DNA from: Candidatus Aquidulcis sp.
GTDB taxonomy: Bacteria; Chloroflexota; Anaerolineae; UBA4142
NCBI GenBank assembly: GCA_020723345.1
Contig: DYJA01000069.1
Span: forward strand, 1 to 32,720
Reading direction: 5' to 3'
DNA length: 32,720 nt
Part shown: positions 6,320 through 32,659 of the stretch, piece by piece
Layout of the letters: the number at the start of each line of letters is the position of its first letter
Position numbering within the stretch: the stretch's first letter is position 1
Position numbers and translations under genes: made by a program
The notes under the pieces: generated by a model
Databases searched by the model: none
The model's input: only the letters and a program-made list of their open reading frames with translations
Told to the model about the DNA's origin: nothing

Positions 6320-6358
6320 GAATGGCTCGCGTGATCGATCAAATCACGCGAGCCATTC
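6320..6358. repeat. Perfect 16-bp inverted repeat at the end of the sigma-factor gene
   Basis: The arms at 6320-6335 and 6343-6358 are perfectly complementary (GAATGGCTCGCGTGAT / ATCACGCGAGCCATTC) with a 7-base loop. One arm encodes the last residues of the sigma factor (EWLA) and includes its stop codon at 6344-6346. There is no T tract on either side, so it is not a standard terminator. It may protect the 3' end of the minus-strand message or act together with the neighbouring terminator. Confidence 0.8.
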
Positions 6359-7979: not shown

Positions 7980-8247
7980 CGGACCTCCTTTCCGGGAAAC
8001 TGCGATCCTCCCGAACGATTTTCACGCCGAAAAATTAGCGTGACTTGTATCCACACGGTACGCCTTCTCTGATTTTTTCGCGTGACGAAGCGGTGTCGCC
8101 TGTCTATTTTCTTTCTTGCAAAAGGTGGTGGAACGCGCGGCGTTCTGCCAGAGGTTTGCCAGATGATTGATAGACCTTGCTCAAGCGCGTCGGGCGGTCT
8201 TGCGGCATAATCAGTCGAGAATTCAACACGGCTTTGAGGTGGCTTGG

Positions 8248-9450
8248 ATGTTCGTTTTGGTTGGTAGTTTTCTCGCCGGCGCGCTCGCGGAATTGATCGG
8301 CGCGCGCGTCGCGTTTCAGAAGATGATCGCCCCGCGCTGGACGGTGGGCTGGTCGGCGTGGCGCGCGCGCGTCCAGAATCTAGTTGTCGCGTATCTGCTA
8401 ATTCATATCGGGTTGGTGGGCGGGGCAGAAATGGCGCAGGCGGAAATCGCGCGTTTTGCCGTAGCGGGGACGCTCTCCGTTATTCTTGCGCTGGCGATGT
8501 TTGGCGTCGCGTGGTTGGGCGCAGTCGCGCTGCGCGTGACCGACGATGCCAAGACGCGGATCACTTTGGCGACGCACTTTGGTTCGGTGAGTATCGGCAC
8601 GTTTGCGACCGTTCAAACTTATCTCACGAGTCAGGGCATTGCGTTCGATCCGGCTTCGGCGGCTTGGCTGACGTTGATGGAAGTGCCGGCGCTTTTCGCC
8701 GGTATCCTCTTGCTCGGCGGCGGTTGGGAATCGCTCAGGCGAATGTTGCTCGACCGCGATCTAGGGTTGCTCCTGGGATCGTTGCTCGCCGGGTACCTTC
8801 TGGGACCGACGGTGGCGCAGCAATTCGATTTTATTATCACCACGCCGTTCGAGTTCGTGCTCTGCTATTTTCTTTTGAATATGGGATTGCGCGCCGGAAA
8901 ACAGATCGCGCAAATCAAAGCCAGCGGCGGCAAACTGATCGCGTTCGGCGTGCTCACCCCGGCGATAGGCGCGGGACTGGGGATCGTGATCGGTGGACTG
9001 GCAAATTTGCAAATGGGTGATATAATCATCCTGGGTACGCTGGCGGCGTCCGCGTCGTACGTGGCGGCTCCGGCAGTGATGGGCAAACAAGTGCCCGCGC
9101 AAGCCATCGCCACGAGTCTTGCCGTGTCGCTCGGCGTGACGCTGCCGTGGAATATCCTGATTGGTATTCCGATCTACACCGGCGTCGCGCGAATGGCGGC
9201 GAATGACGGCGCGCGCGGTGTGATTCTGCTCGTCGCGTTTCTCGCGCTCGCCAGCGTGGCGACGATTTGGATTTTCCGGCGCGATGCTCCGGCTCCGGCG
9301 AAACGCGCAATTCCTTTCGCCAGTTCCGTTCCGGGCGTTGTGAGGTACGTTGACAATCATCCCCCCAAGCGTTTCGATGCGGCGCGCGGCGCGCGGCGCG
9401 ATTTACGTTTGCCGCGCGCGCGCGACGATCCACAAGGCGGGGTCATTTAA
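8248..9450 (+). CDS. SbtA-family permease (sodium-dependent bicarbonate transporter family)
   Basis: Integral membrane protein of 400 residues with about ten hydrophobic segments arranged as two similar halves. Family-typical stretches are THFGSVSIGTFATVQTYL, LTLMEVPALFAGILLL and LAASASYVAAPAVM, followed by SLGVTLPWNILIGIPIY. Members characterised in cyanobacteria import bicarbonate with sodium. The substrate here is not proven. The ATG at 8248 is preferred over one at 8167 because GAGGTGG lies five bases upstream and the first membrane segment begins at once. The tail after residue 350 is charged and Arg-rich. No SbtB/PII-like regulator gene is adjacent. It is the first of ten co-directional genes, 79 bases before the first ATPase. 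Confidence 0.8.
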   Translation: MFVLVGSFLAGALAELIGARVAFQKMIAPRWTVGWSAWRARVQNLVVAYLLIHIGLVGGAEMAQAEIARFAVAGTLSVILALAMFGVAWLGAVALRVTDDAKTRITLATHFGSVSIGTFATVQTYLTSQGIAFDPASAAWLTLMEVPALFAGILLLGGGWESLRRMLLDRDLGLLLGSLLAGYLLGPTVAQQFDFIITTPFEFVLCYFLLNMGLRAGKQIAQIKASGGKLIAFGVLTPAIGAGLGIVIGGLANLQMGDIIILGTLAASASYVAAPAVMGKQVPAQAIATSLAVSLGVTLPWNILIGIPIYTGVARMAANDGARGVILLVAFLALASVATIWIFRRDAPAPAKRAIPFASSVPGVVRYVDNHPPKRFDAARGARRDLRLPRARDDPQGGVI

Positions 9451-12253: not shown

Positions 12254-15200
12254 ATGCACCCCTTACCTTTCGCGCAGATCAATCGCATCAAGGCGCGGCT
12301 CACTAACGACGCGCTATCGCATCTGGTCGCGGTTTTTTCCCAGCAAGAAGGTGAGCGTCTGCTGCTCGTCTATCTCAGAGACGCGGTTCCCCCGATTCTA
12401 CCTCCCAAGTGTCAAGCGATTCCACTCGGCGATCTACGCGATTACGATCTCGCCCAGTACGACGGTCTCGTCATGGCGGTTTCGGTTGTCGACGTCATCC
12501 GTCCTGAGATTCCGACCAAAGGTCCGAATTTCTTTTCGCTGAGTCATCTCTTGCGCGAGCGCAATTGTTTCGATTTGCTGTGGCATACCTGGGGCGAACT
12601 CAGTTGTTTTTTGTTGGAATTGCTTCGCAGCGCGGCAGCGAAACCGATGTCCGAGGCGCAGAAAGAACGCGCGCTGTTTCAGATGATTTGGTTGGCGGCG
12701 CAGGCGCGACTGACTCAACTACCGCGCCAGGATCTCGTCGCGCTCGTGCCGGATCGCAATCTCGCCGCGTTCGTCGAACAGGGCGTCTGCCGCGCGGTGT
12801 ACAGTCAGTTGCCTGCCGCCGACGCGTTGCCGGATCACATCCAAGCATATTCGTTGGAACAATTGAAACATTCGGGGTTTCTGCAGAAGGAGGATCGGGT
12901 CATCGCGTTTGAGGAGGTGTGCAGCGAGGGAATGGGCTTGGGACCCCGGTCGTTCCGTTTCTTGGAATTGCGGGGAGTGTTGCGCCAAAGCGGTTTGGAC
13001 GATGCGCTCGACCGAACCTTGCATCGGCTGGCGATCGATTATTACGACAGTTGGTGCGCCGGGTCATCCGACGCCGAGTGTCTGCGAATGGCGCACGCGT
13101 TGATCGTCGAGGGCTTGCTCGCCAAGCGCGAGGTGGACGATTTGATTGCGGTACTGCCGCGCGACGATTGGGATGCGTTCGCTCAACACGGCGCGGCGAT
13201 TTTCCTCTATCGGCAATTGCCTGAACATGCCGACCCAGGAGAAGGAACGGGCACGCGCCATCTGTCGCTCGAGGATTTGAAATCGAATCGGTTGCCCGCC
13301 GGTTTCGGACAGACGACCTTTGCTTTTCTGCCGCTTGCGCCGCAATTTGAAGCGGCAGGCAGCGCGCGCGTGTACGATCTCGGCTTGTTGCTCCACCAAG
13401 CCGGAAAAACCGGCGCCATGGCGCGCAGCAGTTGGTTGTTGGCGCGCGATCTGCTGGGCTGGTCGCCGGGCGAGCGTCAGACGCGGAATATTTCCATTCC
13501 CGAATTGGCGAAGATCGCGACGCACAGTTGCGCTTTGCTCGGCATCGAAGATCCATGGCTGCGGCAGGGTCATTTTCGGCAGGCGGTCGAGTTGGCGTAT
13601 CGTACCCAGGATCAGATTCTGGAAATGCAAGCCCAAGCCAGTCCTGCGCTCGAGCAACTGTACTATCAAGCCCTGCGCTTGTGGTACCATTGCGGCGAAT
13701 TGAAACCCGAGGAAATCGAGCCGACGCTGAATCAGATGGTCGTATTGTTGCGCGAGTACGAGCAAAAGAGTCGTCAGTTGAGCGAGCCGCGTTCATGGGC
13801 GCGGGAACAGGCGTTACATTTGCAATCGGTGGGCGAGGCATTGTTGCACATGTTAAGCGGCGGTGGTCAGCCGGAGATCATCTTGCGTGTCTACGCCGAA
13901 GAACTCACCCCCGCGCCGAGCAGCGTGCCGCAGGAAATTCGGCTCGTGGCGGATTTGGCGCAAGCCATCGAAGTGCCCTCCCGACTCTTTCGCTTGGCTT
14001 TCCGACGATACGCCGAAATTGTCCAACAGATTCAACGCATTCGCACCAGTCAGATTCCCATTGACGACAAGATCGCACGGTTGCAGGACGGGACCGTGTC
14101 GCTGCGGGATGCGCGCCGAGTGGCGTTTGCGCATCGCCACGAGCGGCGCATTTTGGATCGACTCTACGAATTTGCCATCGAACAAACCGAGTCGCTGGTG
14201 AATGAACTTCAAGGCAGCGCGCAGTTGGAGATCGAGTTATTGACCCAGGCGGTGGCGCAGCATGAAGAACACACGCTGACCTTTCTCGTGCGCAACATTG
14301 GCAGAGTCAGCGCGGGCGCCGTCGAAGTTGAATTTGCGCGCTCTGAACATTTCGCGCTGGTGGAAGAGAGTGCAGTGAAAGACCTGAGTGATCTTTTGCC
14401 GGAGGCGGCAAAGCGCATTCCCTTTGCCATTCGTCCGCGCGTCGATCACGATTTTGCCGTTGGTTTGAAGGTAACCTACCGTGATTTGCAGCAGCAAGTT
14501 CGGGTCCGGCAGCAGGAATTTTTGCTGCGGATCGTAAGTCTGGATCGCGGACCGTTTCGCCCCAAGCCCAATCCCTACGTGTATGGCGCGCCCTTGCAGG
14601 ATCACCGCCTGTTCTACGGACGCCAGCGCGAGTTGGAGTCGTTGCTCAGTCATCTGACGGCGGGGCGACAACAGAATGTTTTGATCCGCGGTGCGCGGCG
14701 CGCCGGCAAAACCTCGGTCCTCAATATGTTGAAGGCAATCGTAGACGATGAGCAGGGGCAGGGTCATATTCGCAAGTGGTTTCAAGTTCCCGACGCGTGG
14801 TATCCCGCGCTGGATCGTCTTCATGCGATCCCCTTGGATTTGCAAAGTGTCGAGCGACAACAAGGCGCGCTGACGCCCAGTGCGTTTTACCAAGCCATTC
14901 TAGGCAGGATTCGGGAGTTGGGACTAGACAGCCAACTCCTGAGCGCGATGTTGTCTGAGCCGCGTGTCACTACCACGCTGTTCACCAAGACGCTCGAACT
15001 GACACTGCAACAGCACGCGGGGACGCGGCTGGTTTTCTTGCTGGACGAATTCGACGTTGTGGACACGATTACCGACAAGACATTTTACGCGCACCTGCGG
15101 CATACGATTTCCCAAGTCCAAGGCGCGACGTGGATTATCGCGAGCGCGCTCGGACTCGACCGCGCGGTGAGCGATTACGAGTCGCCGTTGTTCAACGTGT

Positions 15201-15844
15201 TCAAGATTATCAACTTGGAAAGATTGGACGCCGCAGCCGCACGTCGGTTGATCCTCGATCCGTGGCAAGCGGGCGCGGGCGAAGGGGCGGACGACCAGGT
15301 GACCTTGCAATTTACCGACGACGCGGTGGATGCCATTCTGTATGAAACGGGTTGCTATCCGTATTTCATTCAACTGCTCTGCAGCGCGATTGTGGAACAG
15401 ATCAATCTCGCGCGGACGAACTATGTTCAGCGCGGCATGGTGTACCAGGTGATCGACAAGATCATCGCGTCCCGCAGCGCGGCGTACGAGCACTTTGTCT
15501 TTCCATGGGATCGGGCAGACGGCATCGGCAAGGTGACGTTGCTCGTCCTCCTCAGCCAGATCGAATCGCCCAACACGCATGAACTAAAGCATTTGGTCTG
15601 GGAGCGGTTGCATGACCGCGGGATCAGCGCAGCGCCGAATGTGCTGTTGGCGCTGTACGACGAAGGGCTGCGCCAACTGCAGGCGGTCGACGCGGTCGCG
15701 TTGGATCATCACAATCGTTATGTGTTCGCGATTCCCTTGTTTCGGCGCTTGCTCTTGGAACGCAAGAACCACAGCGACCTATGGACAAACGCGTTCCAGG
15801 AACTACAGGCAGACCTGCGGCGCAAGGAGAAACATGACGGATAA
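12254..15844 (+). CDS. Large protein with C-terminal P-loop ATPase, coupled to the Ehr-like operon
   Basis: The product has 1196 residues. The N-terminal 600 residues have no recognised family but contain two similar blocks (about 158-210, DLVALVPDRNLAAFVEQGVC, and about 294-350, DLIAVLPRDDWDAFAQHGAA), a sign of internal duplication. About 600-660 is helical. About 665-770 looks like an Ig/CARDB-type beta sandwich (LTFLVRNIGRVSAGAVEVEF). The ATPase starts near 785 (NPYVYGAPLQDHRLFYGRQR), with Walker A GARRAGKTS (813-821) and Walker B LVFLLDEFD (926-934). A helical end resembles STAND proteins. No membrane helix is evident. The gene overlaps the next one by 11 bases (ATGACGGATAA), so the two are made together. 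A sensing or assembly role for the complex is inferred only from this linkage. Confidence 0.75.
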   Translation: MHPLPFAQINRIKARLTNDALSHLVAVFSQQEGERLLLVYLRDAVPPILPPKCQAIPLGDLRDYDLAQYDGLVMAVSVVDVIRPEIPTKGPNFFSLSHLLRERNCFDLLWHTWGELSCFLLELLRSAAAKPMSEAQKERALFQMIWLAAQARLTQLPRQDLVALVPDRNLAAFVEQGVCRAVYSQLPAADALPDHIQAYSLEQLKHSGFLQKEDRVIAFEEVCSEGMGLGPRSFRFLELRGVLRQSGLDDALDRTLHRLAIDYYDSWCAGSSDAECLRMAHALIVEGLLAKREVDDLIAVLPRDDWDAFAQHGAAIFLYRQLPEHADPGEGTGTRHLSLEDLKSNRLPAGFGQTTFAFLPLAPQFEAAGSARVYDLGLLLHQAGKTGAMARSSWLLARDLLGWSPGERQTRNISIPELAKIATHSCALLGIEDPWLRQGHFRQAVELAYRTQDQILEMQAQASPALEQLYYQALRLWYHCGELKPEEIEPTLNQMVVLLREYEQKSRQLSEPRSWAREQALHLQSVGEALLHMLSGGGQPEIILRVYAEELTPAPSSVPQEIRLVADLAQAIEVPSRLFRLAFRRYAEIVQQIQRIRTSQIPIDDKIARLQDGTVSLRDARRVAFAHRHERRILDRLYEFAIEQTESLVNELQGSAQLEIELLTQAVAQHEEHTLTFLVRNIGRVSAGAVEVEFARSEHFALVEESAVKDLSDLLPEAAKRIPFAIRPRVDHDFAVGLKVTYRDLQQQVRVRQQEFLLRIVSLDRGPFRPKPNPYVYGAPLQDHRLFYGRQRELESLLSHLTAGRQQNVLIRGARRAGKTSVLNMLKAIVDDEQGQGHIRKWFQVPDAWYPALDRLHAIPLDLQSVERQQGALTPSAFYQAILGRIRELGLDSQLLSAMLSEPRVTTTLFTKTLELTLQQHAGTRLVFLLDEFDVVDTITDKTFYAHLRHTISQVQGATWIIASALGLDRAVSDYESPLFNVFKIINLERLDAAAARRLILDPWQAGAGEGADDQVTLQFTDDAVDAILYETGCYPYFIQLLCSAIVEQINLARTNYVQRGMVYQVIDKIIASRSAAYEHFVFPWDRADGIGKVTLLVLLSQIESPNTHELKHLVWERLHDRGISAAPNVLLALYDEGLRQLQAVDAVALDHHNRYVFAIPLFRRLLLERKNHSDLWTNAFQELQADLRRKEKHDG

Positions 15845-18020
15845 TATTTGGGCAAGTTGGATCGTTTGGTTGTTCTGGATCGAGTGCGCGATCTTTGGGC
15901 TAGGTTCGACGGCAGGACCGTTCCTGCCGCCGGTCGCTCGCGCTCTAGGGCTGGATGAAAACAGGGCGAAGAACTGGGCAATGCGTCTCGCGCTTGCGCT
16001 TGCATTTTTCGGTGGGTTGATGACTGTCGGCGCGAGCGGATGGTACCTGGCGACGTTCGCGGGACGCGGAGAGGATTGCAACTGCAAAATCGCGACGACG
16101 ATCTGGTCGGGCATAGATATTGTCGGCATTTCAACCTTCCCACGGTTTGCGTTGACGTTGTATGTGGACGCGCTATCCGCGTTATTCGGGTTGCTGATTG
16201 GATTTTTTACCGCGTGCGTCGCTTGGTATTCGTTTAGTTGGCTAGATCGGAATCCGCGACGGCACAGTGTTGCCGGAGCGTTCGGGCTATTCGCGTTCTC
16301 CACGTTGCTGGTCGTGCTGGTCAATAATGGTTTTTGGCTGCTCTTGGTTTTAGAGCTGATGAGTTTATCGTTTGGCTACTTGGTGCTTTATCGCGGACAA
16401 CAAGGCGGCATGCAGGAAGAGAGCAAGACTGCTATCCGAACTTATCTGATTGTGAGTCACGTCAGTACGATTTGTCTAGCGATTGCGATTCTGATCATCG
16501 GCAACAACCCCAGGTCGCCGTCGCTCGACTTTGAACTGTTTCGCCAATACAGGGATTCGCTTCCCCCTCTGAGTCGAGACGTTGCTTTTGTGTTTGCGCT
16601 CATCGGCTTGGGGATGCGCGCCGGGATGACGCCGTTTCATTTCTGGGTGCCGGTTGCGCATCCTCAATCTCCGACGACGACGCACGCGTTTTCGCTCGGC
16701 GTCGCGATCAAAGTCGCCATCTATTTGATGATTCGATTTTTCTTTGAATTTCTGTCGCCGATATCGTGGTGGTGGGGCGCGTTGCTTTTGGTGCTGGCAG
16801 GGCTGACCGCGGTGCTCAACGTCTTTTACGCGCTGCTCAGCCGCGATCTCAAGCGCGCGTTGGCGTATCACAGCGTAGAAAACATCGGCATCATTTTGGT
16901 CGGGTTGGGCTTGGCGCTTCTCTTTGGTAGCGAACGTTTTGGTGGTGATGTGACGGTCCGGAGTGTCGCCGGGGTAGCCCTGATCGCGAGTTTGTTCCAC
17001 GTTATTAATCACGCTATTTTCAAAGGATTGTTGTATTTGGGCACGGGATGCATCGAGAATCGCACGCATACTGTGATTATGGACGAACTGGGCGGACTCA
17101 TCCGGCGTTATCCCTGGACAAGTGTAATGTTCTTGGTTGGCGCGATCGCGATTGCCGGGTTTCCGCCGTTTAACGGTTTTATCAGCGAATGGCTGACCCT
17201 GCAATCCTTTTTTGCGGGGATTGACGTTTATCGCGCGCGCGACTTGACGCCCGTGTTGATGCTCGTCTTGCCCGTCACGCTCATTATGCTGGGGCTGGCG
17301 TTTGCGCTGACCGCGCTGGCGTTCGTCAAGATCGCTGGAGAGACGTTGCTGGGGTTGCCGCGCAATCCCAAGATCGTCGCCGGGTTCAAGCCCGGCGACG
17401 CGCCGGTCTCCATGCGATTCGTTCTGTTCGTTCTGGCGGCGCTTTGCTTAGTACTCGGATTGTTTCCTAGTCTTTTGATTCCTTGGTTGGCGGCAGCGGT
17501 AAACGGCATTGGGTATGACACGCGGGCGTTGCGCGCCGATCTTTTTGATCTCACGATTGCTATTCAGAAATCGTCCGGCGAGAGTATCTATCTCACCTCA
17601 CTCGCGATGTTGCCGATTGGGATGTTAGTGGTGGGACCCGTGGCGACGATTCTTGCCGCCTTCGTCTGGCGGCGATTTCGACCGGCGCGCTCCAGCCCGG
17701 TCTGGGTCGGCGGTGAACCGTACCAACCGCAAACGATGCAATACACCGGCAGTGCGCTCTCCGCCCTCGTGTGGGAGACCTTCCAAAAACACGCGGCGGC
17801 GCGCCGATTCGAAGAACCGCTGCCCACCGTCTTTGCGCTTGCCGAAGGCAGGTACGTGATGGAACAGATCAATCGCGGGTACAACGCCGGGATCGCGATG
17901 GTGTTGCGGGCATCGACGTGGGTCGGCGAACATCTGCAAAACGGCGATATTCGAATGTACCTCTTGTACATTTTTGGCGCGTTCATCACCGTGCTCTTGG
18001 TGTTGGCGGTGGCGCGCTGA
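15834..18020 (+). CDS. HyfB/NuoL-like membrane subunit of an Ehr-type complex
   Basis: Antiporter-like proton/cation channel subunit of 728 residues with about 15 or more membrane helices. The core motifs are FWLLLVLELMSLSFGYLV (E174), GLGMRAGMTPFHFWVPVAHP (R262 at the position where most relatives have lysine), GVAIKVAIYLMIR (K293) and RALAYHSVENIGI. The C-terminal extension (from about 600) carries VWVGGEP and resembles HyfB-type subunits. The true start is 15834, inside the end of the upstream gene. Longer frames starting at 15612 only repeat that gene in another frame. The next gene starts 53 bases later. Together with the following five genes it encodes the membrane and peripheral parts of a group 4 hydrogenase-like complex. 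Confidence 0.9.
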   Translation: MTDNIWASWIVWLFWIECAIFGLGSTAGPFLPPVARALGLDENRAKNWAMRLALALAFFGGLMTVGASGWYLATFAGRGEDCNCKIATTIWSGIDIVGISTFPRFALTLYVDALSALFGLLIGFFTACVAWYSFSWLDRNPRRHSVAGAFGLFAFSTLLVVLVNNGFWLLLVLELMSLSFGYLVLYRGQQGGMQEESKTAIRTYLIVSHVSTICLAIAILIIGNNPRSPSLDFELFRQYRDSLPPLSRDVAFVFALIGLGMRAGMTPFHFWVPVAHPQSPTTTHAFSLGVAIKVAIYLMIRFFFEFLSPISWWWGALLLVLAGLTAVLNVFYALLSRDLKRALAYHSVENIGIILVGLGLALLFGSERFGGDVTVRSVAGVALIASLFHVINHAIFKGLLYLGTGCIENRTHTVIMDELGGLIRRYPWTSVMFLVGAIAIAGFPPFNGFISEWLTLQSFFAGIDVYRARDLTPVLMLVLPVTLIMLGLAFALTALAFVKIAGETLLGLPRNPKIVAGFKPGDAPVSMRFVLFVLAALCLVLGLFPSLLIPWLAAAVNGIGYDTRALRADLFDLTIAIQKSSGESIYLTSLAMLPIGMLVVGPVATILAAFVWRRFRPARSSPVWVGGEPYQPQTMQYTGSALSALVWETFQKHAAARRFEEPLPTVFALAEGRYVMEQINRGYNAGIAMVLRASTWVGEHLQNGDIRMYLLYIFGAFITVLLVLAVAR

Positions 18021-18073: not shown

Positions 18074-19066
18074 ATGCAAGAGTTTCCACCCTTGTTCCGA
18101 TCGCTAATCATTTTGATTGCCCAGGCAAGTTTCAACGCGGTGATCGCGCCCGGCGCGATTGGATTGTTGCGCTGGTTCAACGCGCGGCTACAGCATCGGC
18201 GCGGCGCTGACATCTTCCAGCCCTACCGCGATCTGTACAAATTGACTTTCCGCAGGCAGTCTAGCATCTTTGAGCCAACCTCAGGGATCTTTTGGATCGC
18301 CCCTCCCGCGATCCTCGCGTGTTATTTTCTCCTAGGGGGACTACTGCCCAGTCTTTTCTTGACGGATTTGCCTGGCGCGCCTGCGCCGTGGCGCGGCCTC
18401 GATCTGTTGTTTGTGATCTATCTACTGGGGCTCGCCAAATTTATCGCTGGACTCGCTGCGTTCGACGCCGCCACGCCTTTCGGTAACATATCGAATGGGC
18501 GTCAATTCTTTTTGCACCTCCTCGTCGAACCGGTTTTTCTGGCGACGGTCTATGCGCTTGCGCTCAAAGGTCACACCAGCAATCTCGACCGCTTCATTGC
18601 GGATCAACAACAGTTGAGCGTCATTTCTGTCTTCGCGAATCCAGTCATGATCCTGGTATTGCTATCCCTCGGCACGATTTCTCTGGCGGAGAACGGGCGG
18701 CTGCCATTCGACAAGCCGGGGACGCACCTCGAATTGACGATGATCGAACCAGGGACGAGTCTTGAATTCAATGGACGCGGTTTGGCGCTGATCGAGTGGG
18801 CGAACGCGATGAAATTAACGTTCTTTGTTTCCCTACTGTCAGATCTCCTGTTCCCGTGGAGTCTCGCGACGAAATCATTTTCGGCCACCCTGCTTCCCGG
18901 CATGCTCGTCTATCTCGTGAAACTGGTGGCGGTTATTTTTCTCGTGGCGCTTTGGGAGATCACGCGAGCCAAATTGCGGCTGCGGGCAGTCTCTGGTGCG
19001 CTGATGGCGGCGCTCGGCGTGGCGTTTATCGCGTTGGTTTATGTGATTATGACCGACTATTTGTAG
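18074..19066 (+). CDS. HyfC/NuoH-like membrane subunit of an Ehr-type complex
   Basis: The product is 330 residues long, close to E. coli HyfC (about 322). It has eight or so membrane helices. Typical segments are QPYRDLYKLTFRR in the first cytoplasmic loop, the acidic motif ENGRLPFDKPGTHLELTMIE (about 210-230) and LEFNGRGLALIEWANAMKL. In complex I the NuoH subunit links the peripheral arm to the ion channels and lines the quinone cavity. Here it would link the altered large and small subunits to the HyfB- and HyfF-like channels. The ATG is preceded by AGGTGA at good distance. A 11-base gap separates it from the next gene. Confidence 0.92.
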   Translation: MQEFPPLFRSLIILIAQASFNAVIAPGAIGLLRWFNARLQHRRGADIFQPYRDLYKLTFRRQSSIFEPTSGIFWIAPPAILACYFLLGGLLPSLFLTDLPGAPAPWRGLDLLFVIYLLGLAKFIAGLAAFDAATPFGNISNGRQFFLHLLVEPVFLATVYALALKGHTSNLDRFIADQQQLSVISVFANPVMILVLLSLGTISLAENGRLPFDKPGTHLELTMIEPGTSLEFNGRGLALIEWANAMKLTFFVSLLSDLLFPWSLATKSFSATLLPGMLVYLVKLVAVIFLVALWEITRAKLRLRAVSGALMAALGVAFIALVYVIMTDYL

Positions 19067-19077
19067 GAGGATGAATC

Positions 19078-19845
19078 GTGGAATTTCTTCCCGAACTGAT
19101 TCTCGTCATATCTTTTTTCATCTTACTAGTGGCAGTATCGATATCAACGTCGACGACGGTCAAGAGTATGTTGAATCTCTATCAGTGGCAGGCATTGATG
19201 GTGACTGCGATCGTGTTATTTACTGCTGCCGAAAGTCAGCCGATCAATCTCCCCCTCGCGGTTGTTGCGGTGCTCCCAATTTTCCTGGCGTTGGCGATCA
19301 AACCTCTGTTGCGACGCGCAACGTTGGCTGTTCCGGAAGAGCCCGGCAAGGCGGAGTCAAAGACGCGCCCTCAATTACTCGAGGCGGATGGAGAAGGCGG
19401 GCTAGGCATGTTACCGCGCGAGCCGGAATTGACTTGGTTGCAGCAGGGTCGCTCGCGCCTTCCGCCGGTTGTCCTGCTCGGCATCGGTTCGATGTTGACG
19501 TTGTTTTCATTCATCGTGGCTTATCTTCTGATTGGGAAGGGCCCCCAACCGGGGATCGATCCCAACAGCGTCGGAATCTCGATTGCGCTGCTCCTGATCG
19601 GCATCTTGATCATGAGTAACAAGCGGGACATCATCGCGCAGATCATCGGCCTTTTGGTGATGGAACACGGTCTCTTCCTGGCGGCGATCAAAGTCATCAC
19701 GCGTCCACACCTTGCGATTTTCTTTGCCGGCGCCCTCTTCTTTTATATCTTGATCACACTCACCATTCTCGTCTGGCTTTTACCGACGTTGCATCGCGTC
19801 TCCGGCAGCATCGAACTGAACGCCCAGGCGCAACTGAAAGGATGA
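19078..19845 (+). CDS. HyfE/NuoK-like membrane subunit of an Ehr-type complex
   Basis: The product has 255 residues and a GTG start, chosen because AGGAGG (19065-19070) lies seven bases upstream. An ATG at 19071 touches the ribosome-binding site and is in another frame. Three helices are followed by a hydrophilic loop of about 50 residues (80-130), longer than expected for the family (HyfE of E. coli is about 216 residues), and then further helices. The segment ISIALLLIGILIMSNKRDII and the glutamate in LLVMEHGLFLAA (E196) match the buried glutamate of NuoK-type subunits. The 4-base gap to the next gene indicates translational coupling. Confidence 0.88.
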   Translation: MEFLPELILVISFFILLVAVSISTSTTVKSMLNLYQWQALMVTAIVLFTAAESQPINLPLAVVAVLPIFLALAIKPLLRRATLAVPEEPGKAESKTRPQLLEADGEGGLGMLPREPELTWLQQGRSRLPPVVLLGIGSMLTLFSFIVAYLLIGKGPQPGIDPNSVGISIALLLIGILIMSNKRDIIAQIIGLLVMEHGLFLAAIKVITRPHLAIFFAGALFFYILITLTILVWLLPTLHRVSGSIELNAQAQLKG

Positions 19846-19849
19846 GGCG

Positions 19850-21430
19850 ATGGATCTGTTTGATCAGACGACAGCCGCCAAGTTATTGGTGGTTACGCCG
19901 CTGTTTGCGGCAATCCTTACCTTGCTGCCGGAGTGGCTGGGACGATTGCGGTCGCCCTTTGGCGCTGGCACCGCGCGATATTCCCAAACGATGCAAAATG
20001 GAATGACCGTTGCTGCTTCATCCATTTCGCTCATTCTCGCTTTGTTCCTCGCGATTGAACCTGCCACGGGTAAGAAACTCGCGTTCGAATTTGTCGGAAT
20101 GGAATTCTTTCTCGACGCGCTCAGTGTCTATTTTGTGTTATTGGTCAACCTCGTCGCGCTCGCTGCCTCGCTTTACATCCGATCCTTTTTGAATTATCAA
20201 GCGGAAGTGTTTCCGTACCAATCTACGGACGCCACGCGCTTTCACGTCATCTTTAATTTGTTTCATTTCACCATGCTGTTGGTGCCGATGGTGGACAACC
20301 TCGTCCTCCTCTGGATTTGTGTCGAATTGACCACGATCACCTCGACGATTCTTGTCGGTCATCGCCGCGATCGCTTGGCGTTGGAGGCGGCGTGGAAGTA
20401 TATCGTCATCACTTCGACCGGGATCATCTTTGCCTTGCTCGGCACACTATTTTTGGCGAATGCCAATCCAACGGGCGAATCGATGAATTGGTCGTACCTG
20501 GTCAAGGTGGCGAGTCAATTCGACAAGAATTTCGTCAAACTCTCGTTTCTGTTTATCCTGGTCGGTTATGGCGCCAAAGCTGGTTTTGCGCCGATGCACA
20601 CCTGGCTGCCGGATGGTCACGGCGAAGCGCCCTTTCCAGTCAGCGCGCTCTTGTCCGGCGTGTTGCTCAAGTCCGCGCTGTACGCCATTCTGCGTTTTTA
20701 CACGCTCACCAACCTCGCGCTCGGCGATACGCTTTTCACGTCGCGGATCCTTCTCGTATCGGGACTCTTTTCGCTCGCGCTGGCTACGCCGTTTATTCTC
20801 AAGCGTAACCGGTTCAAGCGCGTTCTGGCGTATCACAGTTTGGAGCACATGGGCATCATCACCTTTGGTCTGGGAATCGGCGGCAACATCGCGCTGTTTG
20901 GCGCATTGCTGCACGCCTTGAATCACGCGATCACCAAGGCATTGATGTTTCTAGCGTTCGGCAACGTGCAGGTGAGTTACGCGCGCGTGCGCGGCGACGA
21001 AGAAGAACACGTCGTCGGCATCTTGCGCGCGACGCCGATCACGGGATTCGTGTTAGCCCTCGGCGGGTTGGCGCTGGTCGGCTCGCCGCCGTTCAACATC
21101 TTCCTCAGTGAATTTATTATTCTGTGGGCAGCCGTCCAGCAAGCGGTCGAGCAGTCGAGTTTTGGATTGGCGGCGGCGACCGCGCTCTTTGTGCTTTCGG
21201 TGACGCTGATCTTTGCCGGATTGGTGCGCCACCTCGGTCGGATGCTCATTGGCATTCCTCCTTCGAACGTCAAACCGGAGACCGTTGGACAGGTTTTGCC
21301 CCTACTCGTGCTCTTTGCCATCGTCTTGGTTTTTGGCTTCACCGTCCCTTCCATCGGTCTTTGGGACATACCTCGATTGCTGCAACAAAGCGTTCTGGTG
21401 ATCGAGTGCGGAGTGAGCCCATGTCGTTAG
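19850..21430 (+). CDS. HyfF/NuoN-like antiporter subunit of an Ehr-type complex
   Basis: The product has 526 residues, the same length as E. coli HyfF, with about 13-14 membrane helices. The charged residues of ion-translocating antiporter-like subunits are all present: glutamate in WICVELTTITS (E159), lysine in GYGAKAGFAPMHTWLPDGHG (K243), lysine in SGVLLKSALYAILRF (K274) and histidine in RVLAYHSLEHMGI. This subunit should therefore still conduct ions. GGATGAGG precedes the ATG. The stop overlaps the start of the next gene by 10 bases. Confidence 0.92.
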   Translation: MDLFDQTTAAKLLVVTPLFAAILTLLPEWLGRLRSPFGAGTARYSQTMQNGMTVAASSISLILALFLAIEPATGKKLAFEFVGMEFFLDALSVYFVLLVNLVALAASLYIRSFLNYQAEVFPYQSTDATRFHVIFNLFHFTMLLVPMVDNLVLLWICVELTTITSTILVGHRRDRLALEAAWKYIVITSTGIIFALLGTLFLANANPTGESMNWSYLVKVASQFDKNFVKLSFLFILVGYGAKAGFAPMHTWLPDGHGEAPFPVSALLSGVLLKSALYAILRFYTLTNLALGDTLFTSRILLVSGLFSLALATPFILKRNRFKRVLAYHSLEHMGIITFGLGIGGNIALFGALLHALNHAITKALMFLAFGNVQVSYARVRGDEEEHVVGILRATPITGFVLALGGLALVGSPPFNIFLSEFIILWAAVQQAVEQSSFGLAAATALFVLSVTLIFAGLVRHLGRMLIGIPPSNVKPETVGQVLPLLVLFAIVLVFGFTVPSIGLWDIPRLLQQSVLVIECGVSPCR

Positions 21431-23130
21431 ACGCAACCTACCGGCAATTCTATCAGTGGGCGGAAAAGTACGGCGAATGGTTGTACCTGCCCGCGTCCAA
21501 TCACATCGCGACGCGCCTGCAAGAACCGGACGCGCTGCGCGCCTTTGCCCGGCTGCTTGCCGACGCGCGTGTGTACCTCGCGACCGTCGTGGCGAATGAC
21601 GAACGCGAGTTGGAGGATCACTGCTTCAAAATCTACTATCTCTTCTCGCACCCCACCGAGGATCTTTTTTTGACCGTCGAGTATCTCTTGGGACAAGGCG
21701 CGGAATTCTATCCTTCCTTGTTCGCGTTATTTTCCTCCGTGGATTCATTCGAAAGGGAAATCCGCGATCTGTTCGGGCTGAAAGCGATCCGAGAAAATGG
21801 CGAGACCGTTCAGCCGCGTAGTTGGCTCCACGCGCCCTATCCCGCCGATTTATTTCCGCTGCGACGCGACCGCACCAACGCGCAACTCAAGCAAGCCGTG
21901 GATGCGTACAATCGAGACGGACTAGATCGCAGTACGCCGGTGGAAACGATGAGCGTCAACCCCGGCAGTCTGTTGTTGTCGGTGGGACCCGTTCACGCCG
22001 GAATTATCGAGCCGGGGCGATTCGTTTTTCGGATCGCGGGCGAGGTGATTGACGATCTGACAATTTTCCTGGGATACGCGCACAAAGGGATCGAGCGGCT
22101 CTTTCAGACGCGCCCGACACTGACGGATGGTTGGCGGCTCGCCGAGCAAGTCTCGGGGGATTCGGCGTTCGCGCACGGGTTGGCGTACTGCCGCGCGGTG
22201 GAGATGTTGGCGAACGCGCCGCCGGAGACGGCGGCGGAACTGCTGCGCGGATTGTTTCTCGAACTGGAGCGGATGTACAATCACATCGGCGATGTCGCCG
22301 CGCTCGCGCAGGACGTCGCGCTCGAGCAGATCGCGTCGGAGATCGCCGTCGTGCGCGAAAACTTGGTGCGCTTGAATGCCGCCATCGCCGGGCATCGCTA
22401 TCTGCGTGGGCTGAATCGTCCCGGCGGTATTTGCTTGCCGCGACCGCTGGATCACGCTCGGATCGCGATGGAATTGCATTCGGCGGTCGAATCGTTCAAC
22501 ATCCTCGCGAATGAATTGACGAACCGGAGCGCTTTTCGCGATCGCACGATTGAAACTGGCGTTCTTACATCGTCGGACGCTTTGGCGACCGGCGCGACCG
22601 GGTTGGCGGCGCGCGCCTCCGGCATCGCGCGGGATTTTCGCTGCACTCATCCGAGTGGGGTGTACTGCGAACCCTGGCTGCGACGATTGATGGAGCCGGC
22701 GCCTTTCGGCAAAACCGATTTGCCCGAGGCGACACGCGGTGATGTCTATGCGCGCTTTTTGACGCGAGTTCGCGAGGTCAATACTTCTGCGGCACTGATC
22801 CACGCGATTCTTGAGCGATGGAAAGATTGCGGGGAAAAAGAAAACACGGATTTCCTCACGGAGATCCGGTTCAACCCGGACAGGAATTTTACCTTCGCGC
22901 TGGGCTATGCCGAAGGGTGGCGCGGGGAAATCATCTACTGGCTGATGCAGGACAAGATGGAACACATCTATCGCTGCCAAGTCCGCGACCCGTCGATGTT
23001 GAACTGGCTCGCGCTGCGCTGTTCCATCGTCCCTCACGAGGTCGAGGGCAAGCGCGTCGAGACGATCTTGCCGGATTTTCCATTGATCAATAAAAGTTTC
23101 AACTTGTCATACTCGGGGAACGATTTATGA
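21421..23130 (+). CDS. HyfG-like large subunit (NuoC-NuoD fusion) lacking all NiFe cysteines
   Basis: The product has 569 residues. Residues 1-170 are NuoC-like (FEREIRDLFGL, 110-120, and a conserved HAPYPADLFPLR). Residues 178-569 are NuoD/hydrogenase large-subunit-like (SVGPVHAGIIEPGRFVFRI, GYAHKGIERLF, MYNHIGD). In active group 4 hydrogenases two CxxC motifs hold the nickel-iron centre. Here the first reads VSGDS (S245, S248) and the second DPSMLNW (S525, N528), so every ligand is replaced. The fold is otherwise intact and the reading frame is open, so this looks like a maintained change and not decay. Such proteins are known from energy-converting hydrogenase-related (Ehr) complexes, whose reaction is unknown. 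No hyp maturation genes are nearby, which agrees with the loss. Confidence 0.9.
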   Translation: MSLDATYRQFYQWAEKYGEWLYLPASNHIATRLQEPDALRAFARLLADARVYLATVVANDERELEDHCFKIYYLFSHPTEDLFLTVEYLLGQGAEFYPSLFALFSSVDSFEREIRDLFGLKAIRENGETVQPRSWLHAPYPADLFPLRRDRTNAQLKQAVDAYNRDGLDRSTPVETMSVNPGSLLLSVGPVHAGIIEPGRFVFRIAGEVIDDLTIFLGYAHKGIERLFQTRPTLTDGWRLAEQVSGDSAFAHGLAYCRAVEMLANAPPETAAELLRGLFLELERMYNHIGDVAALAQDVALEQIASEIAVVRENLVRLNAAIAGHRYLRGLNRPGGICLPRPLDHARIAMELHSAVESFNILANELTNRSAFRDRTIETGVLTSSDALATGATGLAARASGIARDFRCTHPSGVYCEPWLRRLMEPAPFGKTDLPEATRGDVYARFLTRVREVNTSAALIHAILERWKDCGEKENTDFLTEIRFNPDRNFTFALGYAEGWRGEIIYWLMQDKMEHIYRCQVRDPSMLNWLALRCSIVPHEVEGKRVETILPDFPLINKSFNLSYSGNDL

Positions 23131-23145
23131 GTGGAGCACAGAATC

Positions 23146-23667
23146 ATGTCACATCGACAATTGGGTAAGAGAAATTGGGTCAATCGCTTGCAGGCGTTGT
23201 TCGGTTTGCGCCTGGACACCGAAACGCAGCCGCGTCCGAGCAGAGGATCGATTTTTAGCCGCTCCATTTTCATTCGACATCTGGATGGCGGTTCGACCAA
23301 CGCGCCGGAAATGGAACTGACCGCGCTGAGTAATCCCATCTACGATCTCGCGCAGTACGGCATTCACTTTGTGCCTTCGCCGCGTCACGCCGACATTCTG
23401 ATCGTCACGGGACCGCTCACTTGGAATATGCTTGGACCAACGCTCGCGACGTTCGAGGCAATGCCAGAACCCAAACGGATCGTCACTGTTGGCGATTGCG
23501 CCAGTTTTTCGGAACAAGGCGGTGATCCAGATTGTCTCTTCAGCGAATCGTATGCGGTCACCGATTTGCCATCTGAAATGACAACGAAAATCGTCGCGCA
23601 CGTTGCCGGCGATCCGCCCACGCCGCGCGCGATCATCCAAAGTTTGTTGCGCTTGGACAAGAAATAA
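23146..23667 (+). CDS. HyfI/NuoB-like small subunit lacking most Fe-S ligands
   Basis: The product has 173 residues. The family core is evident: NPIYDLAQYGIHFVPSPRHA, DILIVTGPLTWNM and RIVTVGDCASF. The proximal [4Fe-4S] cluster of this family is normally held by a CNGC-type pair, a GDC or GTC cysteine and a GCPP cysteine. Here the pair reads STNAPE (T51, P54) and GCPP reads GDPP (D156). Only C118 of GDCA remains; C130 is not at a standard position. A cluster of the usual kind is thus unlikely. The ATG at 23146 is preferred over the GTG at 23131 because GGAG (23133-23136) then lies nine bases upstream. It is the last gene of the operon; its stop codon abuts the terminator. Confidence 0.88.
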   Translation: MSHRQLGKRNWVNRLQALFGLRLDTETQPRPSRGSIFSRSIFIRHLDGGSTNAPEMELTALSNPIYDLAQYGIHFVPSPRHADILIVTGPLTWNMLGPTLATFEAMPEPKRIVTVGDCASFSEQGGDPDCLFSESYAVTDLPSEMTTKIVAHVAGDPPTPRAIIQSLLRLDKK

Positions 23668-23710
23668 AAACCCCGCGACCTTGATCACGCGATCAAGGTC
23701 GCGGGGTTTT
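23667..23710. terminator. Bidirectional terminator between the Ehr-like operon and rplS
   Basis: A perfect 20-bp stem (23667-23686 with 23691-23710, loop ACGC) starts with AAAACCCC and ends with GGGGTTTT, so it has a T run on both strands. It serves the plus-strand operon and the minus-strand L19 gene, whose stop is at 23724. Confidence 0.95.
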
Positions 23711-29297: not shown

Positions 29298-29320
29298 ATC
29301 TAGGTTGGAGCGAGGTGACT

Positions 29321-32300
29321 ATGCCAGAACAAGCGACCGAAATCAAATTGCGGGTGTTTCTTGCTTCGCCGAGCGATGTGGCGGACGAGCGCAAGCGCGT
29401 CGCGCGCGTGATCGACGCGATGAACAAGTCCGAGGCGCGCGCCCATGGCGTCACGCTCGAATTGTTAAAGTGGGAAGACGTTGCGCCGGGAATGGGACGC
29501 CCGGAGCAAGTCCTCCTCGATCAACTCGCGCCGGACAAATGGGATATTTTCATCGGCGTTCTGTGGCTCCGCTTTGGCTCGGAAAGCGGCGGGATCGATC
29601 CCGATACGCGCCAACCGTACCTGTCCGGCACCGAAGAAGAATTCAAAATCGCGTATCGCTTTAATCAAGCGCGCGGCGATGGCTTTCCTAAAATCATGAT
29701 GTATCGTTGCCGGCGCGATCCGCCGAACGCGCTCGAGTTGTTCAGCCATCCGAAAAACATCGAGCAGTTCAGCTGCGTCAACGCGTTCTTCGATGAGTTA
29801 AAGCCCACCGGCAATTATCCCGGATTGTATCAAGAGTACAAAACGCCGGAAGATTTCGCCGAGTTGGTGCGCCAGCATCTTGGGATGCAAGTTGCCGAGT
29901 TCGCGCAAGCGCAACGCGCCGCGCTGCCGCCCCCGCCCGCACCGCCTCCGCTCGCGCCGCGCGAACCGACCGGCGCGGAACGCCAAGCCGCGTTGACGTG
30001 CTATCTCAAAACGTTGAGCGAGCGCTGCGACGCATTGCCGCTTACCTCGCTCGACAGCGATCCACGTCATCACACCCGATTGTCGCTCCATCATGTTTAC
30101 ATCGCGCTCGATACGACGACGCCGGTGCCGCTGACCGACGCCGAAAAAGAACAGCGCAAGGAACGATTAATGCCGGGACGCGATGAGACGCGCCCCTTGT
30201 CCGTGATGGAAGCGGCGGAACGTCAACAATATTTGGTTATCACCGGCGAACCGGGGAGCGGCAAATCATCGTTCGTCAATCGCTTGGCGTTTTTGTTGGC
30301 GAACGCGCGACTGAGGAACGCTGCCTTGCCGGAGCCATGGACGCACGACGCGTTATTGCCGGTGCGTGTGTTCTTGCGCGAACTCGCGCCCACTTTGCCC
30401 GACGCGCAAGTATTGGCGCGACTGCCTGATGAGGCGCGCGCGCAAACCCTGCGGGACGCCGTGCGCGCGTTCATCGCGCAACTTCCGGCGAATTTGGATG
30501 CGGACGCCGCCGCTGCCACGCCGTTGATTTTGTCCGCGCTGTCCGCTGGCGAGTGCCTCGTCATTTTCGACGGGTTGGACGAGGTTGCGCCCGCGCGGCG
30601 CAAAATCGCGCGGGAAGCGGTGGAAGCGTGCGCGGCGCGGTTTCGCGCTAATCGTTTTCTCGTGACCTGCCGCATCCGTTCTTATCAAGGCGATGCTCAA
30701 CTGCCGTCGTTTGAAAACGTGACGCTGACTGAGTTGGACGATCCGAAGATCGAAATGTTTGCGACGGCGTGGTACAACGCGCGCGCCGACCTGGGGCAAA
30801 TCGCGCGCGCTCAAGTGGCGGAACGCGCCGGCAATTTGTGGCGCGCGATTCAAGAGGATGAGCAACTCAAGGAATTGGCGCGAACGCCGCTCTTGCTCAC
30901 GACGATGGCAGTCGTTCACACCGCGCAGATCGAATTGCCGCGCAAGCGCGCGATCTTGTACCAACGCTGCGTCGAAGTCTTGTTGCGCCGCTGGCAAGAG
31001 ACCAAGTTCGGCAAACTGACGTTGCTCGACGATCTCGGTTTGAGCGAACAAGAATTGCTCGAAGCGTTGTGGTACGTGGCGTACGAGGCGCATAAACGCG
31101 GCAACAAGGATGAAACGGCGGATTTGCCGCGCAAGGATGTGTTGGCGATTTTGGCGCGCCGGCTCGGCGATGAAATCAAAGCCGTGAAAATTCTGGAGCA
31201 CGTCGAGGAACGCGCCGGGTTGCTCATCGGGCACGGCGGCGCGGACGACGCCGAACCGACGTACAGTTTTCCGCATCGCACGTTTCAGGAATTTCTCGCC
31301 GGGTGTTATTTGGCGGCGGCGGGGCGCACGAGTTTTGGGCGACAGTTGTGCGCGCATTTGAGCGATAGCGACAAGTGGCAAGTGGCGGCGCAGTTGGGCG
31401 CAGAGCATGTGCTTTATACTCCCGGTGGGCGAACCTCCGATGTATTGGACGCGTTGTACTTGCTATGCCCAGCCACCGCCAAGCCGCGCGACGAGAACGC
31501 GTTGCGCGGGATTGTGTGGGCAGGCGACATTGCATCCGAGATGGGCACCGACCGGATTCGGCGCGAGGAGGTAGATAATCCCGCCATCGCCGTGGAATTT
31601 TTGCAACGTCTTCTTGACCAGCTGGTTCAGTTGATCGAAACACCAAACATGCTCTCCCCGCTTGAACGCGCCGATGCCGGCAATGCGCTTGCCAAGTTAG
31701 GCGACCCGCGCCCCGGGGTGCGGACTCGCGCAGATGGCTTGCCTGATTTTGTTTGGTGCGAAGTTTCCACGGGTCCTTTCACGATGGGGACACGCGAGCA
31801 AGACATTCCTAGATTGAAGAAAAAATATGGCGGCGATGAACAGTGGTACAAACAGGAAACACCCCAACACGAAGAAAAAAGCATCACGCGCGCCTACCTC
31901 ATCGGCAAATATCCGGTGACGAACGCGCAGTTCAACGCGTTTGTGGAGGCAGGCGGCTATCGCGATGCGCGCTTTTGGCAAGAAGCGCTCGCGCAAGGTT
32001 GGTGGACGAAAGGCGGCTTCAAAGGACGCTATGACAACGAAGCGCGCGGCGGTCCCTATCCTTCCGGTTCGCCGTTCAACTTGGACAATCATCCCGTCGT
32101 CGGTGTGTCGTGGTATGAAGCGCTGGCGTTTTGCCGCTGGCTGACAGAGATGTTCAAGGTTTCGGGTTTCAAGTTTCAGGTTTGGCGCAATGGTCAACTT
32201 GAAACTTTGAACCTGAAACCTGAAACACTCACGGCTCGCTTGCCCACCGAAGCCGAATGGGAAAAAGCCGCGCGCGGTCCTTCGACTGGCGCTCAGGATG

Positions 32301-32659
32301 ATGAGCGAATCTTTCCGTGGCAGGGCGAGTTGACGACGCAACATGCGAATTACAGCGAAACGAAAATCGGCGCGACGAGCGCGGTTGGAATTTTTCCGCT
32401 TGGCGCATCGCCGTACGGGTTGCTGGATGCGAGTGGCAACGTGTGGGAATGGTGTAGCACCAAGTGGGTTGACAGTTACAAGGATTATGATAAAAAGATA
32501 AAAGACCGCGAGAACCTTGAAGGAGATTTTACCCGCGTGCTGCGCGGCGGCGCGTTCTACAATGGATCCGACTTCGTCCGCGCGGCGTGTCGCTACAGGT
32601 ACTACCCGAACCTCAGGCTCAGGAACGACGGTTTTCGGGTCGTCGCGGGCGCGTCCTAA
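29321..32659 (+). CDS. DUF4062-NACHT-FGE/sulfatase-domain protein, candidate DGR target
   Basis: The product has 1112 residues. DUF4062, a TIR-like domain, covers about 8-110 (KLRVFLASPSDVADERKRVA, WDIFIGVLWLRFGS). A Pro-rich linker (about 205-220) is followed by NACHT with Walker A GEPGSGKSS (309-317) and Walker B LVIFDGLDE (413-421), a helical region to about 790, then a formylglycine-generating-enzyme-like domain (about 805-1110: PFTMGT, GKYPVTNAQFNAFVEAGGYR, RLPTEAEWEKAARG, GNVWEWCSTKW, VLRGGAFYNGSD). This FGE-like/C-type lectin end ends in a sequence with the signs of a diversity-generating variable region. NACHT proteins with TIR-like and binding domains usually serve in defence or self/non-self recognition; that role is inferred. 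The ATG at 29321 has GAGGTGA upstream; a GTG at 29315 is less likely. Two repeat-derived peptides lie in the FGE domain. Confidence 0.85.
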   Translation: MPEQATEIKLRVFLASPSDVADERKRVARVIDAMNKSEARAHGVTLELLKWEDVAPGMGRPEQVLLDQLAPDKWDIFIGVLWLRFGSESGGIDPDTRQPYLSGTEEEFKIAYRFNQARGDGFPKIMMYRCRRDPPNALELFSHPKNIEQFSCVNAFFDELKPTGNYPGLYQEYKTPEDFAELVRQHLGMQVAEFAQAQRAALPPPPAPPPLAPREPTGAERQAALTCYLKTLSERCDALPLTSLDSDPRHHTRLSLHHVYIALDTTTPVPLTDAEKEQRKERLMPGRDETRPLSVMEAAERQQYLVITGEPGSGKSSFVNRLAFLLANARLRNAALPEPWTHDALLPVRVFLRELAPTLPDAQVLARLPDEARAQTLRDAVRAFIAQLPANLDADAAAATPLILSALSAGECLVIFDGLDEVAPARRKIAREAVEACAARFRANRFLVTCRIRSYQGDAQLPSFENVTLTELDDPKIEMFATAWYNARADLGQIARAQVAERAGNLWRAIQEDEQLKELARTPLLLTTMAVVHTAQIELPRKRAILYQRCVEVLLRRWQETKFGKLTLLDDLGLSEQELLEALWYVAYEAHKRGNKDETADLPRKDVLAILARRLGDEIKAVKILEHVEERAGLLIGHGGADDAEPTYSFPHRTFQEFLAGCYLAAAGRTSFGRQLCAHLSDSDKWQVAAQLGAEHVLYTPGGRTSDVLDALYLLCPATAKPRDENALRGIVWAGDIASEMGTDRIRREEVDNPAIAVEFLQRLLDQLVQLIETPNMLSPLERADAGNALAKLGDPRPGVRTRADGLPDFVWCEVSTGPFTMGTREQDIPRLKKKYGGDEQWYKQETPQHEEKSITRAYLIGKYPVTNAQFNAFVEAGGYRDARFWQEALAQGWWTKGGFKGRYDNEARGGPYPSGSPFNLDNHPVVGVSWYEALAFCRWLTEMFKVSGFKFQVWRNGQLETLNLKPETLTARLPTEAEWEKAARGPSTGAQDDERIFPWQGELTTQHANYSETKIGATSAVGIFPLGASPYGLLDASGNVWEWCSTKWVDSYKDYDKKIKDRENLEGDFTRVLRGGAFYNGSDFVRAACRYRYYPNLRLRNDGFRVVAGAS
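32153..32226. repeat. GTTTCAAGTTTCAGG inverted repeat inside the FGE domain
   Basis: The left part (GGGTTTCAAGTTTCAGG, about 32164-32180) and right part (CAACTTGAAACTTTGAACC and CTGAAACCTGAAAC, about 32195-32226) are imperfectly complementary. It encodes FKVSGFKFQVWRNGQLETLN, an insertion between two conserved FGE segments (FCRWLTE and RLPTEAEWEKA). Confidence 0.65.
32537..32640 (+). other. Candidate variable region (VR) of a diversity-generating retroelement
   Basis: The last 40 codons follow the plan RVLRGG...VRAA.R....P..R.R..GFRV of DGR targets in FGE/C-type lectin folds. Codons at the expected variable sites are TAC, GAC, TTC, TGT, TAC, TAC, TAC, AAC, CTC, CTC and AAC. All but TGT end in C, as if derived from AAC in a template by changes at adenines. 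AGG, rare elsewhere in this GC-rich DNA, occurs three times (32597, 32615, 32621). No template repeat or reverse transcriptase is in the window; they may lie to the right. Confidence 0.6.

Follow-up and report, generated by a model that had tools for sequence, protein, structure and literature searches.

An Ehr-type complex without NiFe or proximal-cluster ligands, encoded behind STAND NTPase genes in a Chloroflexota genome: a candidate redox-inert ion-moving machine

The 32,720-nucleotide stretch analysed here (contig DYJA01000069.1 of Candidatus Aquidulcis sp., Chloroflexota; hereafter the window) carries a hydrogenase-like hyfBCEFGI operon of the Ehr kind directly behind STAND NTPase genes. 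The large subunit HyfG has none of the four NiFe-ligand cysteines, and the small subunit HyfI keeps one of the four cysteines that bind the proximal [4Fe-4S] cluster. Since the NiFe ligands and the proximal cluster are both gone, no known electron route leads to the HyfG pocket, and the complex is very unlikely to be a hydrogenase or a normal electron-transfer enzyme of the complex I-like kind. We tentatively propose a redox-inert, complex I-like Ehr complex that moves or conducts ions and is gated by STAND NTPases, a reading to which we give a little less than an even chance.

HyfG is an intact open frame of 569 residues with a hydrogenase-like fold, as the initial annotation had stated, and comprises a NuoC-like N-terminal domain (Pfam Complex1_30kDa, 5.5e-11) and a NuoD/HycE-like C-terminal domain (Complex1_49kDa, 3.1e-24). 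By sequence, its nearest relative of solved structure is E. coli HycE (7z0s_E, 3.9e-35), and E. coli formate hydrogenlyase-1 (HycE/HycG, PDB 7z0s) is also its best structural match over the whole length, with model residues 5 to 569 superposing on HycE 5 to 537 at Z 38.0 and 26% identity. In the alignment, C-G-I-C of HycE lies opposite S245-G-D-S248 (codons 22153-22155 and 22162-22164), where the first ligand pair had already been placed. The second pair had been assigned to S525 and N528 in DPSMLN, and this position was wrong: 'RDPSMLNW' aligns with HycE 'RAATYANW', which is conserved and precedes the ligands. The C-terminus reads DFPLINKSFELCYACLDR in relatives with ligands and DFPLINKSFNLSYSGNDL in HyfG, which puts the distal ligand positions at S563 and G566 (codons 23107-23109 and 23116-23118). 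The extension beyond the distal motif expected of a hydrogenase is absent, with the C-terminal L569 opposite HycE 537; HycE is cleaved after Arg537, so that the HyfG stop matches the end of mature HycE. Since L569 pairs with HycE 537 and no gap lies in between, S563 pairs with HycE Cys531, an active-site ligand (PMC9474812, excerpts). E197 and R501 of HyfG are kept as counterparts of Glu193 and Arg478, which lie close to the HycE active site, whereas the counterpart of Asp529, termed strictly conserved, is N561 (same excerpts). HyfG thus lacks both NiFe-binding CxxC motifs of group 4 [NiFe] hydrogenases, and with cysteines absent at all four aligned positions a normal NiFe centre is impossible, as first annotated. 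The statement that three of the four changes are Cys to Ser still holds at the corrected sites, although by luck, since the distal sites from which it was derived were the wrong ones.

The loss is shared widely. We gathered 124 large subunits, leaving complex I proteins out, and all four positions were readable in 123, among which 101 have no Cys, 20 have four and 2 are mixed. These were collected with the window protein and Ehr-type profiles and alignment, so that 101 of 123 describes a biased sample and is no census; it does indicate that the replaced ligands are not due to chance or a sequencing error. In the 101 ligand-less proteins, position 1 is Ser in 93, position 3 is Ser in 97 and position 4 is Gly in 97, the dominant patterns being Ser-x-x-[S/T/E] and Ser-x-x-Gly. 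The named loci with this signature span many phyla (Nitrospira, Omnitrophota, Acidobacteria, Burkholderia, archaea and others). S245, G246, D247, S563, Y564, G566 and D568 are invariant in a ten-row alignment, and the Ehr signature SGD[S/T] ... NLSY[S/A]GNDL is present in HyfG and its relatives. An intermediate large subunit with one Cys per motif (SGIC, ELSYAC) occurs in Desulfosporosinus (L161), beside a four-Cys small subunit. HypD is encoded in only four of the eight genomes with the window's Ehr subtype and therefore speaks neither for nor against a hydrogenase role.

Loss of the NiFe ligands is a known condition of Ehr complexes, for which Marreiros et al. 2013 is the main survey. In excerpts of PMC6349859, PMC10284858 and PMC7304191, Ehr proteins are described as missing metal-binding residues, their function being unknown or hypothesised only; the word 'Ehr' does not occur in PMC8076601. 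The initial placement with Ehr was broadly right, given the ligand-less large subunit and the hyfB-C-E-F-G-I order, and since ligand loss is the ordinary Ehr signature this placement alone was already known. Calling the Ehr reaction 'not known' presupposes a redox reaction, and this complex lacks even the point at which electrons usually enter.

That entry point lies in the small subunit. HycG carries the proximal [4Fe-4S] cluster, which corresponds to N2 (PMC9474812, excerpts), and at its four Cys positions HyfI reads T, P, C and D, so that the proximal-cluster ligands usual in Ehr are missing. Ligand-less large subunits accompanied by a readable small subunit numbered 91; the small subunit has all four cysteines in 65, three in 2 (one of which runs off its contig) and two or fewer in 24. 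The 24 cluster-poor cases include the window with its closest relatives, a group from the Candidate Phyla Radiation (CPR) with its relatives, a group of small genomes, and single cases. Among the relatives whose small subunit could be read, the five closest have at the ligand positions S,A,C,H; N,V,C,F; C,G,D or C,N; S,C,G,S; and C,A,G,D, the third position of genome G500 being unsure (D in one alignment, C in another). Across six cluster-less HyfI sequences, identities in the ligand columns are 0.33, 0.33, 0.50 and 0.33, whereas the 162 columns average 0.62 and 41 of them are invariant, SPRHAD and TGP among them. Since the ligand columns fall far below the mean while so many others are fixed, HyfI is under constraint but its cluster site is not. 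HyfG and HyfI modelled as one read-through chain gave a mean predicted local distance difference test score (pLDDT) of 83.8 and a predicted template modelling score (pTM) of 0.88, which predicts a normal-looking soluble pair. A search of the genome for a second cluster-competent small subunit returned, besides hyfI, only two complex I NuoB-like genes.

A quick IQ-TREE search on the large subunit used 82 of 126 aligned rows, the other 44 being close copies, partial rows and others. On this hyfG tree, the kept or lost state of the cluster requires seven changes (81 rows counted, 26 scored lost), and grouping all cluster-less Ehr, as 21 rows named by the hyfI trait, into a single clade was rejected (approximately unbiased test, p-AU 1.8e-6). 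The loss of the proximal cluster, as predicted from these sequences, arose repeatedly. The window belongs to a clade of eight rows (support 100), in which G673 and G582 keep four cysteines and the other six have lost them (support 98). The converse arrangement was also seen: five group 4-type large subunits that retain both CxxC motifs (L051-L054 in G013, G089, G029 and G121; L066 in G113) have small subunits without the proximal-cluster cysteines (e.g. GSDNSCD / GDEAC / PGDPP), that is, a NiFe-type site without an electron relay.

The membrane arm shows no such losses. Each of the six hyf genes of the window has an open frame. The conserved Glu is present in both HyfB and HyfF together with the Lys/Arg/Lys series, and HyfC retains the loop acids and the 'LEFNGRG' stretch. 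Relatives in the clade mostly keep the ion-path residues as well, some motifs being unreadable in partial rows, and the order hyfBCEFGI is held across families. Antiporter-like, NuoH-like, large and small subunits are all present, as in Ehr operons, and the ATG of hyfB at 15834 precedes the stop of STAND3 (15842-15844), giving an 11-base overlap. Within the operon we recognised neither a ferredoxin-like nor a dehydrogenase gene. No Rfam family matched in the window, and a protein search of plasmids returned matches below 60% identity only.

Three STAND/AAA-type NTPase genes stand in tandem before hyfB on the same strand (Table 1). STAND3 has a long N-terminal region (model pLDDT 74.5) and the Walker A/B core followed by a winged-helix-like domain that characterises STAND NTPases; its motifs are GxRRxGKTS and DEFD, and GARRAGKTS and DEFD are conserved in the alignment. 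Its AAA_16/nSTAND1 matches are weak, and a fold search gave Orc1/Cdc6-type matches of the NTPase part only and otherwise long, poor alignments. PADLOC returned weak matches only for the STAND proteins. In each of the five other checkable genomes (G481, G500, G673, G502 and the Candidatus Chloroheliaceae genome G447), STAND3 is the gene immediately before hyfB, whereas the contigs of G616, G671 and G582 end before its position. STAND1-like genes precede STAND3 in G447, G500, G673 and G502, and a STAND2-like gene occupies the same place in G673. In a profile search of 396 genomes of the class, full-length STAND3 was found in the window's genome (G000), G673, G500 and G502, with that of G481 cut by a contig end; every other listed match begins at position 559 or later, in the NTPase half. 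Full-length STAND3 was thus found only in genomes with the window's Ehr subtype, and very probably the two are functionally tied.

Table 1. Features of the STAND and hyf genes in the window
Feature	Position	Strand	Evidence
STAND1, AAA_16/ATPase_2-type NTPase, C-terminal Trans_reg_C winged helix	9524..10972	+	Pfam
STAND2, AAA/ATPase_2-type NTPase without winged helix	11095..12180	+	Pfam
STAND3, ~1,196 aa, NTPase near 780-1000, C-terminal winged-helix-like part	12254..15844	+	Pfam AAA_16; alignment
hyfB/HycC-like antiporter subunit	15834..18020	+	PRK06521 hydrogenase 4 subunit B 1.3e-137; HycC 1.4e-43
hyfC/HycD/NuoH-like subunit (ATG 18074)	18074..19066	+	NADHdh 1.9e-27; HycD 6e-29
hyfE-like small membrane subunit	19078..19845	+	operon position; hyfE homologues in relatives; no Pfam match
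hyfF-like antiporter subunit	19850..21430	+	hydrogenase 4 subunit F 2.1e-117
hyfG, Ehr-type large subunit without NiFe ligands, 569 aa	21421..23130	+	open frame, Pfam, HycE alignment, structure comparison
Proximal NiFe ligand motif replaced, S245-G-D-S248	22153..22164	+	HycE alignment
True distal NiFe ligand motif replaced, S563-Y-S-G566	23107..23118	+	C-termini of relatives; structure comparison
hyfI, HycG/NuoB-like small subunit (start GTG 23131 or ATG 23146)	23131..23667	+	Oxidored_q6 1.2e-14; MbhJ 1.8e-19; HycG 1.7e-18
T56 and P59 (in GSTNAPE) in place of the first two proximal-cluster ligands	23296..23307	+	alignment
Third ligand position, sole Cys kept, C123 in GDCAS	23497..23499	+	alignment
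Fourth ligand replaced, D161 in AGDPP	23611..23613	+	alignment
Strong stem-loop, 20-pair stem, T tails on both strands, likely operon end	23667..23710		consensus scan only

The gene run of G447 opens with a VMAP-C/EAD2 gene and a MoxR-like AAA gene, and STAND1 of G673 bears a caspase-like domain that reads LDVEHA at what we take to be the place of the usual catalytic Cys motif. VMAP, MoxR, vWA and caspase domains had no match among the window proteins scanned, which represent part of the window genes. Another STAND-type gene of the window (29315-32659, + strand) encodes a DUF4062-NACHT/AAA-FGE-sulfatase protein (PADLOC PDC-S60, 6.4e-23), and a sigma-70-like protein with regions 2 and 4 is encoded upstream on the opposite strand (6344-7501, - strand).

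Since the redox route is gone but the complex retains its ion path, soluble fold and gene order, we infer ion movement under STAND control. The redox-inert HyfG/HyfI arm would probably survive as a conformational lever; the STAND NTPases, STAND3 above all, would sense a signal, bind or hydrolyse ATP and, via HyfG/HyfI, open, close or drive the movement of H+ (or Na+) through HyfBCEF. Several points weigh against this proposal. Physical contact of STAND3 with the complex, the gating and the choice of ion are what we infer, not what we observe. Since G673 has STAND3 together with all four cluster cysteines, the STAND3 link predates the cluster loss, and since other gene clusters lacking N2 (CPR and others) have no STAND3, STAND gating cannot explain the loss in general. 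The profile was built from four of the five positives plus G447, so that only G502 is independent. No STAND3 match was found in G582, which is 98% complete, belongs to the same clade and has its cysteines intact, and this is a true exception; the search also gave none in G616 and G671 (73% and 67% complete). The Glu of transmembrane helix 5 of HyfF is Gln in G447, and the hyfB motif is unreadable in G673. The complex may also contain an organic redox cofactor, or one bound by ligands other than cysteine.

In one alternative, the complex is still an oxidoreductase whose polar pocket (S245, D247, S248, S563 and D568, alongside the retained E197 and R501) holds a cofactor, organic or metal, or lets two substrates swap hydride without an iron-sulfur relay. 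The pocket is conserved across Ehr, as the seven invariant residues indicate, and E197 and R501 pair with HycE residues near the active site (PMC9474812, excerpts). However, position 245 is A or T in the closest relatives L173, L183 and L184, the operon has no recognised ferredoxin-like or dehydrogenase gene, and the cluster site is degenerate with no fixed alternative in its place; we consider this explanation unlikely. Distinctly unlikely, in our view, is that the STAND proteins are assembly factors or transcriptional regulators and that the Ehr complex performs ion-tied non-redox chemistry such as inorganic-carbon uptake. The Trans_reg_C domain of STAND1 fits such a role, and an Sbt_1 gene (8167-9450, + strand, 2.7e-61) that ends 73 bases before STAND1 hints, as a member of the Na+-dependent bicarbonate transporter superfamily, at bicarbonate and Na+. 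On the other hand, STAND3 matches no recognised DNA-binding family, and in G447 and G500, where some of the upstream genes were tested, none of these proved to be Sbt_1-like.

Decay, in which the small subunit drifts since the complex has lost its use, would account for the varying residues at the four cluster positions, but it is highly improbable given six open genes, the invariant HyfI columns and the gene order held across families. It is equally hard to credit that the complex is an ordinary Ehr with a misaligned or wrongly framed small subunit: 65 of 91 Ehr small subunits do keep all four cysteines, yet the flanking SPRHAD, VGDC and PPTP motifs of HyfI align beyond doubt and the same kind of loss recurs in independent genomes.

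The proposed STAND-gated complex shares with known Ehr complexes a group 4-type large subunit without CxxC ligands and antiporter-like and NuoH-like membrane subunits. It differs in the loss of the proximal-cluster ligands, which Ehr complexes usually keep, and in its STAND-led operon; in addition, hyfI is last in the window operon and first in relatives of the same class (L187-L190, L192, L194). HyfB and HyfC find their best matches in HycC and HycD of formate hydrogenlyase-1, whereas the window complex lacks the NiFe ligands, the proximal-cluster ligands and the C-terminal extension of that enzyme, and no counterpart of HycB/HycF or the formate dehydrogenase was recognised in its operon. CPR Ehr complexes (Jaffe et al. 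2020, PMC7304191, excerpts) likewise have a ligand-less large subunit, and the CPR small subunits collected here also lack cluster ligands (TCDD/DCDD; L084, L088-L091, L094). They sit on a separate branch of the tree, begin with hyfI (hyfI-B-C-E-F-G) and have no STAND3; these loci are from Patescibacteria (CPR) and genomes on the same branch, in operons missing both ligand sets, and the excerpted text of PMC7304191 mentions only the missing cofactor-binding cysteines of Ehr proteins. Respiratory complex I is a poor match, since the quinone-site motif 'DRLDY' of NuoD reads 'EQVSG' in HyfG and no NADH module gene was found among the scanned window open reading frames. Mrp antiporters have no NuoB/NuoD-like subunits, whereas the window has HyfG and HyfI. 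The VMAP-C/EAD2 and MoxR-like genes of G447 and the caspase-like domain of G673 resemble markers of the NTP-dependent biological conflict systems described by Kaur et al. 2020 (PMC7159879, excerpts), which have STAND, VMAP/MoxR and caspase domains, although a complex I-like partner is not mentioned in the excerpted text. In open-access literature outside the main Ehr survey, we found no report of an Ehr complex without proximal-cluster ligands or of one tied to STAND NTPases. Ehr complexes are known; the proximal-cluster loss and the STAND linkage go beyond the initial annotation.

It is still an open question how, in complex I-type machines, a reaction of the soluble arm is coupled to the movement of ions through the membrane arm, and a two-armed family without an electron carrier would test whether conformation alone can drive or gate ion conduction. 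Because the proximal cluster was lost repeatedly in several lineages, a non-redox role would not be a one-off. Annotations such as 'hydrogenase 4' or 'NADH-quinone oxidoreductase' would then be no sure sign of electron transfer, and the STAND NTPase link would be a new mode of control for complex I-like machines. It is conceivable, although improbable, that infection or stress is sensed by the STAND proteins, which then open the membrane arm of the redox-dead Ehr complex and so collapse or reset an ion gradient; if true, the complex would serve bacteria as an immune or stress channel derived from a hydrogenase/complex I ancestor.

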